Source of the DNA: an uncultured Actinomycetes bacterium
GTDB taxonomy: Bacteria; Actinomycetota; Acidimicrobiia; Acidimicrobiales; RAAP-2
Assembly (NCBI GenBank): GCA_903870905.1
Contig: CAIQEU010000032.1
Coordinates: 1-61,751 of the forward strand
Reading direction: 5' to 3'
Length of the DNA: 61,751 bases
A program made the position numbers and the translations under genes. This document shows, piece by piece, positions 42,816-50,455 of this stretch. Under the pieces are notes generated by a model. It saw only the letters and a program-made list of their open reading frames with translations, searched no databases and was not told the DNA's origin. Every line of letters begins with the position of its first letter. Within the stretch, counting starts at the first letter, position 1.

Positions 42816-44231
42816 GTGGCCACACCTGACCCCTCCGCCCAGCCGGACTTCGTCGTCATCGGTGGAGGCCCTGCCGGTTACGGCGCAGCGCTCACCGCAG
42901 CCAACGCCGGAGCATCCGTGGTGCTCGTCGATGCCGGTGGCCTCGGTGGCACCTGCCTGCAGCGTGGGTGCATCCCTGCCAAGTACTTCCTCGAAGCGGC
43001 TTCGGTCTTCCGAAGCGTTTCGCATGCCGCCACCTTCGGCATCACCACGTCGGCGCCAGGAATCGATTTCTCGGTGACTCAGAAGAACAAGGCGACGCTC
43101 GTGGGATCGATCGCCACCGGGCTCGGAAAGCTCTTGAAGCTCCGTGGCGTCAGGGTGCTCAACGGGCGTGGAACGCTCCACGCTGATCGCATGGTCACGG
43201 TCGACGTTGATGGCGCAGTCACCACCTTCGCTCCACGATTCGTGATCCTGGCCACGGGGAGTCGTCCCCGTGCGCTCGACGCCCTCCCCGTCGATGGTGC
43301 GGTGGTCGTGGATTCCGATGGGTTCTTGAACCTCGAGCGGTTGCCATCATCGGCGATTGTCGTCGGTGGCGGGGCAATCGGCTGTGAGTTCGCATCGATG
43401 CTGTCCGACCTCGGTGTCTCCGTGCACCTCGTGGAAGGGCTCGATCGAATCCTCGCTGGTTGCGACGGCGACGTGTCGAAAGTGGTGCACCGATCCTTTA
43501 CCAAGCGCGGGATTGCGGTGACGACCGGGGTGCAGGTCCTCGGCCGCACGCTGTCGCCAGATGGAGCGACGGTGGAGCTGTCGAGTGGTGCGACGATCAC
43601 CGCGGATCTCGTGGTGGTTGCCGTCGGGCGAGAACCCGTCACCACGGCGCTGGCTGAGGGTCTCGAGCTCGACCACGCCGGCTCCGGTGCACTCATCGCC
43701 ACCGAGCAGCAGATGACGTCCATGCCCGGCGTCTACGCCGTTGGCGACCTCGTCGCAGGGCGACCGCAACTCGCCCACGTTGGCTTCGCCGAAGCACAGA
43801 TCGCCGTCGGCCACGCACTCGGCAGTCCACTCCCGCCGCTCGACGTCGACGGCGTTCCATGGGCCATCTACTGCCGACCAGAGGTGGCCTTCGTGGGGTT
43901 GACCGAAGAGGAGGCCACCCGGCGCGGTCTCTCCATTGTGACCAAGCGTGAACCAATTGGTGGAAACTCCCGGGCCCAGATCATCGGGGAGACCGAGGGA
44001 CTCGTGAAGGTGATCTGCGCCGCCGAGCCCGACGGAACGGCTGGGGCAATCCTCGGGGTGCACCTCGTTGGGCCGTGGGCAACGGAGCAACTCGGCCACG
44101 GCGAACTCGCCGTCAACCTCGGCCTCGACGTCGAGGCCGTGGCGCGCTTCATCCAACCCCACCCATCGCTCACGGAGCAGTACGGCGAAACCTTGCTCGC
44201 CTTGTCGGGACGGGGCATGCATGTCCGCTGA
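42816..44231 (+). CDS. lpd: Dihydrolipoyl dehydrogenase
   Basis: A 471-residue class I flavoprotein disulfide reductase that reoxidises dihydrolipoyl groups of the 2-oxoacid dehydrogenase and glycine cleavage complexes. FAD site GGGPAGYGAA, redox-active disulfide CLQRGC, NAD site VVGGGAIGCEFA, second FAD site YAVGDL, and the active-site His-Glu pair in HPSLTEQYGE are all intact. GTG start; TAGGAT 6 bases upstream suggests a leaderless mRNA. The lipoate-synthesis fusion starts inside its last codons, linking production of lipoyl groups with their use. Confidence 0.92.
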   Translation: MATPDPSAQPDFVVIGGGPAGYGAALTAANAGASVVLVDAGGLGGTCLQRGCIPAKYFLEAASVFRSVSHAATFGITTSAPGIDFSVTQKNKATLVGSIATGLGKLLKLRGVRVLNGRGTLHADRMVTVDVDGAVTTFAPRFVILATGSRPRALDALPVDGAVVVDSDGFLNLERLPSSAIVVGGGAIGCEFASMLSDLGVSVHLVEGLDRILAGCDGDVSKVVHRSFTKRGIAVTTGVQVLGRTLSPDGATVELSSGATITADLVVVAVGREPVTTALAEGLELDHAGSGALIATEQQMTSMPGVYAVGDLVAGRPQLAHVGFAEAQIAVGHALGSPLPPLDVDGVPWAIYCRPEVAFVGLTEEEATRRGLSIVTKREPIGGNSRAQIIGETEGLVKVICAAEPDGTAGAILGVHLVGPWATEQLGHGELAVNLGLDVEAVARFIQPHPSLTEQYGETLLALSGRGMHVR

Positions 44232-45927
44232 GTGTGATCGCCAGTCGCCGATGCCTCGTGGGGTCGACCCCGTGGAGCTCCGATTCCTCGGACGCGTGCA
44301 CTACGAGGAAGGTCTCGCGCTCCAGCGGTCCCTCGCCGAACACGCATCCTCGGACTACGTCCTCGTCCTCGAGCACCCTGAGGTCATCACCCTCGGCCGT
44401 TCAGCCGACCGCGACCACGTCCTCGCTGGTGCGAGTGCTCCGGTCATCGCGACTGACCGCGGGGGTGACGTCACCTGGCACGGCCCGGGCCAAGTCGTGG
44501 TGTACCCGATCGTGGATCTCGGCGACGATCCAGGAGCCCCGAAGTCGCACGTCTGCCTCCTCGAGCGCGTGGTCGCCGAGGTCGTGGCCGACCTGCTCCC
44601 CGATGCGCCACCGGGTTCGATTGGTCGACTCGAGGGTCATCCGGGGGTCTGGGTTGGTCTCGACACCGCCGCTCCAGCCAAGATCGCCGCAGTTGGGATC
44701 CGCTCCATACGGTCGAGTGATGGACGCCGCCGATCGCTGCACGGCATTGCCCTCAACGTGGCCCCCGACCTCGAAGCCTTCGGCCAGATCGTCCCCTGCG
44801 GGCTCACGCGCCCAGTGACGTCCCTGCGGGTACTTGGGTGCGCCCTCGACCCCGATGCGGTCGCTCGGCGCCTCGGTGAGGGCATCGCCGATGCTCTCGC
44901 AGCAGGGCGCACCGTGCGATCTCAGGCCGTGGTGGCTGGTCGGACCGACGCCGAGACGTCGACCCCGATTCGCCTCCGGCGATTGGCGCAAGCGGGCGTC
45001 GATGCGTCCACTGCGGTGTCGATTTCGCAGCGCAAGCCCGAGTGGCTCCGAGCACCGGTCACGCTCGGATCGGGACTGCGCAGCACTGAGCAGACGGTGC
45101 ACGGCGGGGGTCTCGTGACCGTGTGTGAAGAAGCTGGGTGCCCGAACCGCTCGGAGTGCTGGGCCGATGGCACCGCCACCTTCATGGTGAACGGCGCCGA
45201 CTGCACCCGTGCCTGTGGGTTCTGCCAGATTGGCACGGCCAAGCCAGCGCCCCTCGACCCCACGGAGCCACACCGCGTGGCCGCAGCGGTTGCGCAGCTC
45301 GCCCTCGATCACGCAGTCGTCACCTGCGTGGCGCGTGATGACCTCGCCGATGGGGGAGCAGGCGCCATCGCCGACACCATCCGGGCCATTCGAGCGGTGC
45401 GACCGATGACCACGGTTGAGGTGCTCATCTCGGACTGCAAGGGTGACGGGGGGTCGCTCCAGCGGATCTTCGATGAACGTCCCGACGTCTGCAACCACAA
45501 CCTCGAGACGGTTGCCCGGCTCCAGCGAGCGGTCCGGCCGTCAGCGGGGTACGCCAGGAGTCTCGGCGTCCTCGCCGCTGCTCGAGCAGCAGGCCTCGTC
45601 ACGAAGTCCGGCCTCATGGTCGGCCTCGGTGAAACCGACGACGAGGTCCACGCGGCTATGGCCGATCTCCGAAGCGTCGGCACCCAAATTTTGACCATTG
45701 GCCAGTACCTCCGACCGACGACCACCCACCTGCCAGTGGCTCGGTTCTGGACGCCGGAGGAGTTCGACCGGCTCGCTGCGATTGGTGACGACCTCGGATT
45801 CGACCACGTCGAGGCCTCGCCGCTCACCCGTTCGAGCTACCACGCCAAGGCTGGAGCGAGGGCAGTCGGCCAACCCACTACGGTGGCAGTTTCGCTCGTC
45901 TCGAAAGGTTCCACCCCATGCGCATAG
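44221..45927 (+). CDS. LipB-LipA fusion: octanoyltransferase joined to lipoyl synthase
   Basis: One 568-residue frame carries both steps of lipoyl-group synthesis. Residues ~15-225 are LipB, which moves octanoyl from acyl carrier protein to lipoyl domains: RGGDVTWHGPG, catalytic Lys154 (AKIAAVGIR) and Cys193 (VPCG). After a ~35-residue linker, residues ~265-568 are LipA, the radical-SAM sulfur inserter: auxiliary cluster Cys302, 307 and 313 (CEEAGCPNRSEC), radical-SAM Cys328, 332 and 335 (CTRACGFC), and RSSY at 537-540. No stop or frameshift lies between them. ATG 44221 overlaps lpd by 11 bases; an in-frame ATG at 44251 is possible. The FAH-family gene overlaps its 3' end by 10 bases. Confidence 0.9.
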   Translation: MSAECDRQSPMPRGVDPVELRFLGRVHYEEGLALQRSLAEHASSDYVLVLEHPEVITLGRSADRDHVLAGASAPVIATDRGGDVTWHGPGQVVVYPIVDLGDDPGAPKSHVCLLERVVAEVVADLLPDAPPGSIGRLEGHPGVWVGLDTAAPAKIAAVGIRSIRSSDGRRRSLHGIALNVAPDLEAFGQIVPCGLTRPVTSLRVLGCALDPDAVARRLGEGIADALAAGRTVRSQAVVAGRTDAETSTPIRLRRLAQAGVDASTAVSISQRKPEWLRAPVTLGSGLRSTEQTVHGGGLVTVCEEAGCPNRSECWADGTATFMVNGADCTRACGFCQIGTAKPAPLDPTEPHRVAAAVAQLALDHAVVTCVARDDLADGGAGAIADTIRAIRAVRPMTTVEVLISDCKGDGGSLQRIFDERPDVCNHNLETVARLQRAVRPSAGYARSLGVLAAARAAGLVTKSGLMVGLGETDDEVHAAMADLRSVGTQILTIGQYLRPTTTHLPVARFWTPEEFDRLAAIGDDLGFDHVEASPLTRSSYHAKAGARAVGQPTTVAVSLVSKGSTPCA

Positions 45928-46754
45928 CGGCCATCAACCACCGAGCTCACCTCGTGCTCGACGACGGAGCGGTCGATCTCGAGCAGGCATCGGGTGGACG
46001 TTTCAGGAGTGACCTCATGGAGGCCATCGCTCGAGCAGACGAGATCGCAGCGTTCGCCGCTCAATCGGAGCTCGTCGGAGCGCCGTTCGACGTGTTGGAG
46101 CTCACCTGTCCCGTGCCTCGGCCGAGCCAGGTGGTGGCCATTGGGGTGAACTACGCCGATCACGCCACCGAGATGGGCATCGACCTCGCGCCGGAGCCCG
46201 TGGTCTTCACCAAGTTCCCCACCTGCATCGCGGGGCCGAACGAGGTCGTGACCTTGCCGAACAACACGGTGGACTGGGAGGTCGAGATGGTCCTCGTCAT
46301 GGGACGCGACGCCTTCCAGTTGACTGAGGAGGAGGCCTGGGATGCGGTGGCCTTCGTGACCGTGGGTCAAGACCTCTCCGACCGAGACCTCCAGTTCGCC
46401 GCTGGACGACAGTTCGCCCTCGGCAAGTCCCGTCCCGGGTTCGGCCCGATCGGCCCCTGGCTCGTCACCCCCGATTCCTTACCGAACCGTGATGACCTCC
46501 AGCTCACCTGCAGTGTGGATGGCGAGGTCGTCCAAGACGGCCGCACCTCGTCGATGATTCGCCCAGTCAGCACCCTGCTCGCCGAGGTCACCCAGTACCT
46601 AGAGCTCCGCCAGGGCGATGTGATCTTCACGGGGACTCCCTCTGGGGCAGGAATGGGTCGTACACCCCAGCGCTACCTCCTGCCCCACGAGACGCTCGTC
46701 TCGACGATTGAAGGCATCGGCACCATCACCACGACCTTCGTCGACGGCCGCTGA
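45918..46754 (+). CDS. Fumarylacetoacetate hydrolase-family enzyme
   Basis: A 278-residue member of the FAH superfamily (acylpyruvases, fumarylpyruvate hydrolases, 2-oxo-acid decarboxylases). The core has GVNYADH, FTKFPTC, the metal-binding DWEVEMVLVMG with its Glu, GQDLSDRDLQ and the FTGTPSGAGMG ending. Substrate is not clear: oxaloacetate decarboxylase or acylpyruvase are as likely as an aromatic-pathway enzyme. It overlaps the lipB-lipA fusion by 10 bases, so coexpression with lipoate metabolism is likely. Confidence 0.88.
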   Translation: MRIAAINHRAHLVLDDGAVDLEQASGGRFRSDLMEAIARADEIAAFAAQSELVGAPFDVLELTCPVPRPSQVVAIGVNYADHATEMGIDLAPEPVVFTKFPTCIAGPNEVVTLPNNTVDWEVEMVLVMGRDAFQLTEEEAWDAVAFVTVGQDLSDRDLQFAAGRQFALGKSRPGFGPIGPWLVTPDSLPNRDDLQLTCSVDGEVVQDGRTSSMIRPVSTLLAEVTQYLELRQGDVIFTGTPSGAGMGRTPQRYLLPHETLVSTIEGIGTITTTFVDGR

Positions 46755-47215: not shown

Positions 47216-50200
47216 ATGCAACCCTTCTCTTCTCTTCGTCGCACCCTCACCGCGTGTGTTGTCGCAGTTGCCTCGGTGGTGGTCGCTGCAACTGGCGTGG
47301 TTGGCAATGCTGGAGCGTCCACCAACCTCCCCTGCGATGCCGTCGTGGCCTACTCGTCCCTCAACTCCGGTGGCCAATGCGAGCTCGACGTCACCGGGAT
47401 CTCCCAGGTCGACACGGTGACGTTCGCCTATCCCGTCCAGAGCGCAACGGTCGTCGTGACGGGTGGGAGCGGACAGGCGAGCGCCGGGCATACTGCTGGT
47501 TCGGCGGAGCAAATTGTGGCCACCGTCGATGCGTCGAGCGCACCGACGGTGGAGATCTCGACGGGTGGCAGCAACGGTGCGAACTGCCACGATGGATCGC
47601 TCGTCAGCGGCGGCCCGGCAGCATCGATTGCCGGTCCCGGCGGCCTCGCCATCGTGGCCGGTGGCGGTGGGGGGTCAGGGTGCTCGAGCGACACCGGGAT
47701 CGGCGGGAACGGCGGTTCTGCTGGCGACCTTGCTGCGGGCACGCTGCCGCTCGAGGCTGATGGACAGCCGGGCACGCCCAACACGGACCTCACCGGTACC
47801 GTCCTATCGCCAACCGGTGGTGGCGGAGGCGGTGCGGTTTCGGCAGGCGGCGCCGGTGGTGATTGGGCCAACTCCATCAGTGGTGGCAATGGCGCCAGCG
47901 GCTTCGGGTGGGGACCAACGGACGCCGGGAACGATGGCGGCACCGGCGGTGGATGCGATTCCATGGGCGGCGGTGGCGGCGCTGGGTACTTCGGTGGTGG
48001 CGGCGGCGGATGCTCGGGGTACGACGGCACGAGCGGCGGCGGTGGAGGATCGTCGTACCTGAGTGGCGCGACCTACGTCTCGAGCACGCTCGTGGCATCG
48101 ACCCCTGACAACCAAGCCTCAGTCATCTTCACCTTCGACCCATTGAGCGCAGACTTCCTCACCGTGTCGCCTATTGACTTTGGCACCACCGCAGTTGGCG
48201 TTCCATCGACGCAGGTGGCCACCCTGACCAACGTGGGATTCACGTCCCTGACCTACACCGGTGCGATACCGAGCGGAGCGGATACCTCGGTCACCTCAGG
48301 CGGAACCTGCGTCGTTGGCGCGACCCTCGCCGTCGGCGCGAGTTGCACGATTGCCGTGCAGTGGGATCCGACCGACGTGACGTCAGATCCCGGTTCAGTC
48401 ACCGTGTACTACAACGCCATTGACTACGCCTCACAAGTCTTCACCTTGTCGGGGAACGTCATCGCTGCCGGTCCGCTCACCACCAGTGGGGCGAACTTCG
48501 GCAACCTCGCCGTCGGCGCAACGGCATCGATCCGAGCCAAGGTCATCAACACGGGCTCTGACACGGCCACCCTGACCGCATTCGCCACGCAGGGAGACGG
48601 GACGATGACCGTCGTTGGCAGTGACTGTGCTGTGGGCACCGTGCTCGGTCCATCACAAGGTTGCGTGGTGTTCTTGGAGTGGGCACCAACCTCAACGGTG
48701 TCGAGTCCCGGAGGACTCTCGGTCTCCTACGACGGGACGCCGCTCGCCGGAGGGACCCAGCATGGCCAAGAGGTCCTCACTGTGGCAGGGACCGTCTTCG
48801 GTGCTGGACCGATCACTGGATCGGGAACGTCGTTCGGCTCGGTTCTCGTTGGGGTGGCGGCCGCAACGACCGCAACGCTCACGAACACGGGGAATGACCA
48901 GGCGTCGATTACCGGGCTCAGTCTCACCGGCGACGGAACGGGTTCGATTACCGGTGGCAGCTGCGCGGTCGAGGTCGAGTTGGCACCGGGAGATTCGTGC
49001 ACAGTTGAGCTTGAGTGGACGCCAACGAGTCTTCATGCTGCACCCGGAACGATCGTGGTCTCCTACGACGGAACCCCGAATGGTGGTGTGACCCAACACA
49101 GCACTGACGACGTTGCCCTTTCGGGAACTGTGGCGTACCCGTCGGCAACGATCAACGGCGCGACCTCGACCTTCCCCTTCACAGCCGCCGGTGTGACGAG
49201 TCGCATCTCGTCGACGTGGATCAACACCGGTACTGGTGATGGCACCATCACGTCGCTCAGTGTCGTTGGCCGATGGGCCAGCGTCGTCGGTGGGTCGTGT
49301 GCCGTCGGCGTCGTCGTCCACCCGACAGAGAGCTGCACGGTGGTGCTCTCGTGGACGCCGACAACCCAAGATCCGTCACCCGGTGACGTCGCAATGTCGT
49401 GGTCCGATGCATCGGGCGGCGGGTCATCATCGACCACGTACTCCGAGGAATCCACTGGCGCAGGACCGATTTTGTTCACCCACACCGCGCTCACGCCCGC
49501 TGCTGCGGGCTCCTCGAGCGTCTCGGATGTGGTGGTGGCGAACGGTGGATCGACCACGCTCGACCTCTTCAGTGCCACGGTGTTCTTCGGAGCTGTGACG
49601 ATCACCGGCGGAACCTGCGTGCCAGGGGTGACGGCGCTGGCCCCGGGAGCATCGTGCACCCTCGAGATGACCTACGCGCCAAGCGAGAGCGACCTCGGCA
49701 CCATCGCCGGGGTACTTGGCGTCCTCACTGAGGCGGGGATGGACATTGGTTTCCTCACCACCAGTGCCGTCCCGGAGAACCTGCAGCCCGGTCCGCTCAC
49801 CTTCTCTGGAGCGACCTTCGGGCCGACCCTCATTGGCTTTTCCTCATCAACGGTGCTGGTGGTGACCAATAGTGGCCCCGGCTCGCTCACGCTCTCATCG
49901 GTCCGTGGGCCGGGACATGGGGTCACCATCACCGGGGGCACCTGCGTGTCGGGTCGTCAACTCGCCTCCGGTGCATCGTGTGCACTCGATCTGTCGTGGA
50001 AACCAACAACCATCGGGGTCCTCCACGGCATCGTGCAGTTCTCCTACCCAGGAGCGGGAGGAAGTGGGTTCGACGGTTCGGGGTTGACCGGTACCGCCAT
50101 CGCTCCGTCAGTGAGCGGGCTGTCGACGTCCTTCGGACTCAACTCGTCTGTGCTCACCTCGTCGCAGACGCTGGCGATCGCCAAGCTCGCTCGCCAAATC

Positions 50201-50455
50201 GCGGCCAAGGGGTACACGGTGGTGTCGTTGGCCGGGTACGCCAACCCGGGTGAGCGGGGGAAGAACACCCTCATCCTCAGCACGCAGCGGGCGACGAACT
50301 TTGCTGCGGCGCTCCACACGGCGCTGGTCACCCTCGGCGACCACAACGTCGTGATCACCGCCGTTGGCAAGGGTGGCACCACGAAGTTTGGGAAGGTGAC
50401 CGCCGCCGGCGGGTCGCCGAAGAATCGGATCGTGACCTACACCTTGGGGAACTAG
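47216..50455 (+). CDS. Giant secreted protein: Gly-rich domain, six Ig-like modules, OmpA-like C-terminus
   Basis: A 1079-residue exported protein. The signal peptide covers ~1-36. Residues ~40-300 form a Gly-rich domain with long Gly runs and Cys, like the glycine-rich modules of other actinobacterial surface proteins. From about residue 304, six beta-sandwich modules of ~105 residues follow (ASH/choice-of-anchor style); several begin with a motif like DFGTTAVG and most carry a Cys pair (GGTC then GASCT). The last ~110 residues, from about 50120, resemble the OmpA-like end of the protein at 2-5899 (GYANPG, TTKFG, NRIVTY). A cell-surface adhesive or structural role is inference. No sortase signal or membrane anchor is visible. 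Confidence 0.85.
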   Translation: MQPFSSLRRTLTACVVAVASVVVAATGVVGNAGASTNLPCDAVVAYSSLNSGGQCELDVTGISQVDTVTFAYPVQSATVVVTGGSGQASAGHTAGSAEQIVATVDASSAPTVEISTGGSNGANCHDGSLVSGGPAASIAGPGGLAIVAGGGGGSGCSSDTGIGGNGGSAGDLAAGTLPLEADGQPGTPNTDLTGTVLSPTGGGGGGAVSAGGAGGDWANSISGGNGASGFGWGPTDAGNDGGTGGGCDSMGGGGGAGYFGGGGGGCSGYDGTSGGGGGSSYLSGATYVSSTLVASTPDNQASVIFTFDPLSADFLTVSPIDFGTTAVGVPSTQVATLTNVGFTSLTYTGAIPSGADTSVTSGGTCVVGATLAVGASCTIAVQWDPTDVTSDPGSVTVYYNAIDYASQVFTLSGNVIAAGPLTTSGANFGNLAVGATASIRAKVINTGSDTATLTAFATQGDGTMTVVGSDCAVGTVLGPSQGCVVFLEWAPTSTVSSPGGLSVSYDGTPLAGGTQHGQEVLTVAGTVFGAGPITGSGTSFGSVLVGVAAATTATLTNTGNDQASITGLSLTGDGTGSITGGSCAVEVELAPGDSCTVELEWTPTSLHAAPGTIVVSYDGTPNGGVTQHSTDDVALSGTVAYPSATINGATSTFPFTAAGVTSRISSTWINTGTGDGTITSLSVVGRWASVVGGSCAVGVVVHPTESCTVVLSWTPTTQDPSPGDVAMSWSDASGGGSSSTTYSEESTGAGPILFTHTALTPAAAGSSSVSDVVVANGGSTTLDLFSATVFFGAVTITGGTCVPGVTALAPGASCTLEMTYAPSESDLGTIAGVLGVLTEAGMDIGFLTTSAVPENLQPGPLTFSGATFGPTLIGFSSSTVLVVTNSGPGSLTLSSVRGPGHGVTITGGTCVSGRQLASGASCALDLSWKPTTIGVLHGIVQFSYPGAGGSGFDGSGLTGTAIAPSVSGLSTSFGLNSSVLTSSQTLAIAKLARQIAAKGYTVVSLAGYANPGERGKNTLILSTQRATNFAAALHTALVTLGDHNVVITAVGKGGTTKFGKVTAAGGSPKNRIVTYTLGN

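Follow-up and report, generated by a model that had tools for sequence, protein, structure and literature searches.

A fused, probably bifunctional LipB-LipA protein that is widespread in the class Acidimicrobiia

The systems closest to the one described here are built from two well-known enzymes, the octanoyltransferase LipB and the lipoyl synthase LipA, both of which have solved structures from M. tuberculosis (1w66 for LipB, 5exi/5exk for LipA) and are stand-alone proteins in that organism. A related type of fusion is already known to NCBI curators, as the NCBIfam family NF053790 (LplA_LipA_fuse, bifunctional lipoate--protein ligase/lipoyl synthase) shows; in it an attachment enzyme, named LplA, likewise stands ahead of LipA. 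In other Actinomycetota the genes lipB and lipA lie close together in two frames at 13 of the 20 loci that were read (with lipA first in L089 and L090), which is likely the precursor state of the fusion described below. UniProt assigns automatic names to fusions of this kind, and our searches of open-access literature gave no description of a fused LipB-LipA enzyme. Passages of PMC10332631, PMC3904984, PMC3917532, PMC4398509 and PMC7186572 deal with LplA-LplB fusions, reporter fusions, the Shewanella lipBA operon or the LipB-LipA pathway, and a fused LipB-LipA enzyme is absent from these passages.

The gene considered here, lipBA, lies in a window (the whole stretch of DNA analysed, 61,751 nucleotides) from an uncultured bacterium of the Acidimicrobiales, and encodes a fused, probably bifunctional LipB-LipA protein, of which the fusion itself is well supported. 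Its features and immediate neighbours are as follows:

42816..44231, + strand: lpd, presumably dihydrolipoyl dehydrogenase; same neighbour in four congeners
44221..45927, + strand: lipBA, coding sequence of the fused octanoyltransferase-lipoyl synthase, 568 aa, ATG at 44221, TAG at 45925-45927
44266..44931, + strand: LipB octanoyltransferase domain, residues 16-237 (PRK14345, TIGR00214, LplA-B_cat, 1w66)
44680..44682, + strand: Lys154, presumed catalytic lysine of LipB; invariant in an alignment of 16 fused proteins
44797..44799, + strand: Cys193, presumed acyl-thioester cysteine of LipB; invariant in the same alignment
44932..45012, + strand: inter-domain linker, residues 238-264; length varies among relatives
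45013..45861, + strand: LipA lipoyl synthase domain, residues 265-547 (PRK12928, PRK05481, TIGR00510, 5exi)
45124..45159, + strand: presumed auxiliary [4Fe-4S] cluster motif CX4CX5C, Cys302/Cys307/Cys313; invariant in the same alignment
45202..45225, + strand: presumed radical-SAM cluster motif CX3CX2C, Cys328/Cys332/Cys335; invariant in the same alignment
45829..45840, + strand: RSSY motif, residues 537-540, located in the same alignment
45918..46754, + strand: presumably a fumarylacetoacetate-hydrolase-like gene; same neighbour in four congeners

A reading of this DNA made from its sequence only had described a single uninterrupted 568-codon frame, and translation of 44221-45927 bears this out, giving 568 residues with zero internal stops; the ATG at 44251 (Met11) is a possible alternative start. 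With the start placed at 44221, the upstream gene, which we take to be lpd, as the sequence-only reading named it, ends at 44231 and overlaps lipBA by 11 bases. The downstream gene, whose name is likewise our assumption from its sequence, overlaps the 3' end of lipBA by 10 bases.

Both halves of the protein are recognized by equivalog models in an NCBIfam scan: TIGR00214 (lipB) matches residues 40-203 with 100.7 bits against a cut-off of 83.55, and TIGR00510 (lipA) matches residues 265-543 with 335 bits against a cut-off of 310.25. The LipA half is clear by four NCBIfam models, with PRK12928 (residues 265-544) and PRK05481 (residues 272-547) both above cut-off. For the LipB half, four of the five models fall below their cut-offs, PRK14345 slightly so (residues 16-237, 147 bits against 155) and PRK14341, PRK14342 and PRK14343 far below. 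Pfam places the LplA/B catalytic domain (LplA-B_cat) at residues 28-221 and a radical-SAM domain at 328-482; the LIAS_N domain (PF16881), which is matched in 9 of 14 control genomes, has no match at E 0.001 in the window's own genome. The protein is not a member of NF053790, which it matches with 348.1 bits against a cut-off of 800 and only over the LipA part (positions 330-604 of 606); the N-terminal part of that family is named LplA, whereas that of the window protein is LipB. The solved proteins that match best in sequence are the two M. tuberculosis enzymes, and the likeness extends over both halves: 1w66 is matched in sequence over residues 16-226 and in fold at 39% identity with the Lys/Cys pair common to both, and LipA is matched in sequence over residues 261-542 (5exi) and in fold at about 50% identity, with shared cluster cysteines and RSSY motif. 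In the 16 fused proteins, including that of the window, Lys154, Cys193, Cys302/307/313, Cys328/332/335 and Arg537-Ser538-Ser539 are invariant, and Tyr540 is kept in all rows except one, where it is replaced by His. The catalytic roles of Lys154 and Cys193, the roles of the two cluster motifs and the RSSY motif are those presumed from the two families. An earlier claim that an intact octanoyltransferase is followed by an intact lipoyl synthase is thus upheld by models above cut-off and by the presence of the named residues, with the single Tyr540 substitution.

Far from being peculiar to the window's genome, the fusion characterizes most of the class genomes sampled. Among 149 class genomes of completeness 90 or more, 142 contain a match to the protein and 141 carry LipB and LipA in one frame (141 of the 142 with a match). 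A single match spans both domains in 112 class genomes, and in 27 more the match is partial, within a frame that is 510 codons long or longer. As a criterion of fusion a long open frame proved too weak, given that four loci from other classes passed it and yet turned out to be separate genes with stops inside. Doubtful class rows were therefore read directly: this comprised all 22 spanning matches that contain stops and all 27 partial matches, and at each of these 49 loci both domains share one frame. The remaining 90 spanning matches are stop-free. Both domains also share one frame in G487 and G553, where the pieces are cut by contig ends, and in G507 the gene is split across two contigs. No LipA model exceeds 30 bits in seven class genomes (G395, G478, G480, G501, G521, G533 and G544), of which three (G478, G480 and G501) have an LplA/B-type domain above cut-off, one (G395) has such a domain below it and three have none; this would fit lipoate scavenging, loss or draft gaps. 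When the own genome and its relatives are taken together, 57 of 61 match the protein; in the four relatives that do not (G006, G010, G023 and G046) there is no LipA above 30 bits, and an LplA/B-type domain is above cut-off in three of them. At the Acidimicrobiales locus L060 the match is scattered over several frames.

Irregular copies were seen at a few of these loci. Frame changes occur inside the LipA part in G553 (loci L175, G553:C13, and L176, G553:C28) and in the relative L022, each being a broken copy or an assembly fault. In G475 there is, among the matches listed, a second, stand-alone LipA match in addition to the fusion (G475:C83:2397-3296, 51% identity, in a 326-codon frame), representing either contamination or a true second copy.

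Outside the class, 20 loci of other Actinomycetota, picked from 396 genomes (323 with a match), were read, and none of the 20 shows a LipB-LipA fusion: at 14 a LipB match is found in a different frame on the same strand (weak in L100, with 58 bits, which was dropped from the tree; lipA precedes lipB in L089 and L090), and at six only LipA. Among 47 loci from the collection of named genomes, three from Chloroflexota (L042-L044) are fused with the same domain order (frame lengths 527, 605 and 514 codons), and two others (L057 and L061) consist of two overlapping frames. The fusion in Chloroflexota is known from these three loci only. Quick trees with long branches were computed for 76 LipA and 72 LipB rows; L060, known duplicates, most of L002-L030 and any piece shorter than 150 residues were excluded. 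In the LipA tree the 37 class rows fall on one side of a branch with weak support (42); in the free LipB tree the class rows are not together, and the AU test does not reject a single clade for them (p 0.589). Within the class, a single fusion event joining adjacent lipB and lipA genes is the most likely origin. The Chloroflexota rows, three in number, are placed apart from these in the trees, and their fusion is perhaps a second, separate event. Grouping every fusion in a single clade is rejected for LipA (AU p 0.022) and not for LipB (AU p 0.24); given this split, in quick trees with long branches, a common origin or transfer may instead link the class and Chloroflexota fusions.

The LipB-LipA fusion is a real and uncommon architecture made from two well-known enzymes and widespread in its class. 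LipB and then LipA act on the same carrier domain, and with two proteins it is hard to test whether the carrier passes straight from one to the other or is let go in between; a natural fusion present in 141 of 149 class genomes, and also in Chloroflexota, is a ready construct for such a test. As a single gene, lipBA is also a candidate means of lipoylating proteins in other hosts. An annotation pipeline that named the fusion by one of its halves would miss the second function.

We consider it very likely that lipBA specifies a bifunctional enzyme on one polypeptide, in which the LipB half octanoylates the carrier and the LipA half inserts the sulphurs. The bifunctional reading is supported by the single frame, the equivalog models, the invariant residues, the conservation in the class, the lack of any further LplA/B-type domain or protein match in the own genome, the operon order and the AlphaFold2 model. 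Octanoyl transfer and sulphur insertion by the respective halves are what knowledge of the two families would predict: the LipB domain would accept octanoate from octanoyl-ACP, bind it to Cys193 as a thioester and pass it to the lipoyl lysine of the carrier protein, after which the LipA domain, with its auxiliary and radical-SAM iron-sulphur clusters, would add two sulphurs at C6 and C8. The advantage of such an arrangement might lie in a fixed 1:1 ratio and in two active sites close to one carrier.

AlphaFold2 modelled the window protein, from a shallow alignment of 16 fused sequences, with a mean pLDDT of 85.7 and a pTM of 0.84, and the solved structures closest to the model are LipA and LipB. 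The pTM suggests docked domains with one preferred arrangement, which would make the direct hand-off of the octanoylated carrier advanced in the sequence-only reading plausible. For the Chloroflexota protein L044, modelled from 13 sequences, the pLDDT is 85.6 and the pTM 0.57; the comparison is limited by the difference in near relatives between the two alignments, and indicates that a high pTM is not automatic in predictions of two-domain fusions. The distance between the matched parts ranges from 26 to 141 residues across 62 class loci (including five designed duplicates and one extra pair from one genome) and is 13, 27 and 13 residues in the Chloroflexota loci; the spread in the class argues against a strictly fixed geometry. 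We give about even chances to a reading that is itself compatible with bifunctionality, namely that the domains are made together and work independently on a flexible linker, so that the fusion sets stoichiometry and expression only and involves no hand-off. The variable spacing favours it, as does the low pTM of L044 at equal pLDDT, which is expected where domain orientation is not fixed; the pTM of 0.84 for the window protein speaks against it, albeit with no more than 16 sequences in a shallow alignment. The more elaborate proposal, in which pre-docked domains would octanoylate and sulphurate the carrier without its leaving, and in which the protein would be, in this genus, a machine dedicated to GcvH after loss of E2 (see below), is rather unlikely.

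It is more doubtful still, and quite improbable in our estimate, that an internal start or cleavage yields the LipA half as a separate protein, be it as an additional or as the main form. In a count over 57 linkers (duplicates removed except for G038, counted twice, and with one linker, L114, mis-measured) an in-frame ATG, GTG or TTG is found in 55, an ATG in 30 and a Shine-Dalgarno-like stretch before a start codon in 25; against this, GTG is frequent by chance in GC-rich DNA, 27 linkers have no ATG and two have no start codon whatsoever. That the genes are really separate and the fused frame an artefact of an overlooked stop or frameshift, as the proximity of separate lipB and lipA genes in other Actinomycetota could hint, has practically no likelihood, since four congeners and 141 of the 142 matching class genomes show the fused frame as well. 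The four congeners, at 62-66% identity, are all fused in one frame, and the frame in the window has no internal stop. In the own genome (completeness 97.67%) the sole LplA/B-type domain and the sole protein match are those of lipBA itself, with no other LipB/LplA-type protein or LipA. A broken copy at this locus, or separate copies elsewhere, both raised in the sequence-only reading, are thus rejected by conservation and by the searches of the own genome.

In eight of nine chosen relatives the gene order is lpd - E2 - lipBA, with an E2-like protein between the two (having a longer predicted N-terminus in L035) that contains a TDKVD sequence, which we take to be its lipoyl motif; the exception is L118, where lpd is directly upstream of lipBA. 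In the window and its four congeners lpd abuts lipBA and the intervening E2 gene is missing; lpd also abuts lipBA in L017 and L022. The 2-oxoacid dehydrogenase E2 domain (PF00198) is found neither in the own genome nor in three of the four congeners nor in G010, of the same family, all of these being drafts; it is present once in the congener G002 and at least once in 11 of 12 further relatives. E2 thus seems to have been lost from the window's operon. Given its absence between lpd and lipBA, lpd may here provide the glycine cleavage system with its L-protein, instead of supplying a component of pyruvate or 2-oxoglutarate dehydrogenase. The sequence-only reading had stated that lipBA overlaps lpd, the enzyme that uses its product: the overlap stands, whereas the role shifts with the missing E2, with lpd perhaps serving glycine cleavage. 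Matches to PF01855, a 2-oxoacid:ferredoxin-oxidoreductase family, occur in the own genome and in three congeners, with none in G002.

The Biotin_lipoyl domain has five matches in the own genome, of which four carry an xMKM motif, presumably that of biotin carriers, and the fifth lies inside GcvH, where ESTKSVSE is presumably the lipoyl site. GcvP matches share a contig with GcvH. With E2 apparently lost from the operon, GcvH is left as the likely single client, and, as judged from draft genomes, it is probably the sole lipoylation client in the own genome. Further along the + strand of the window, after lipBA, a 1079-aa frame at 47216-50455 is rich in Gly, Ser and Thr, contains repeated units and looks by eye like a secreted protein.
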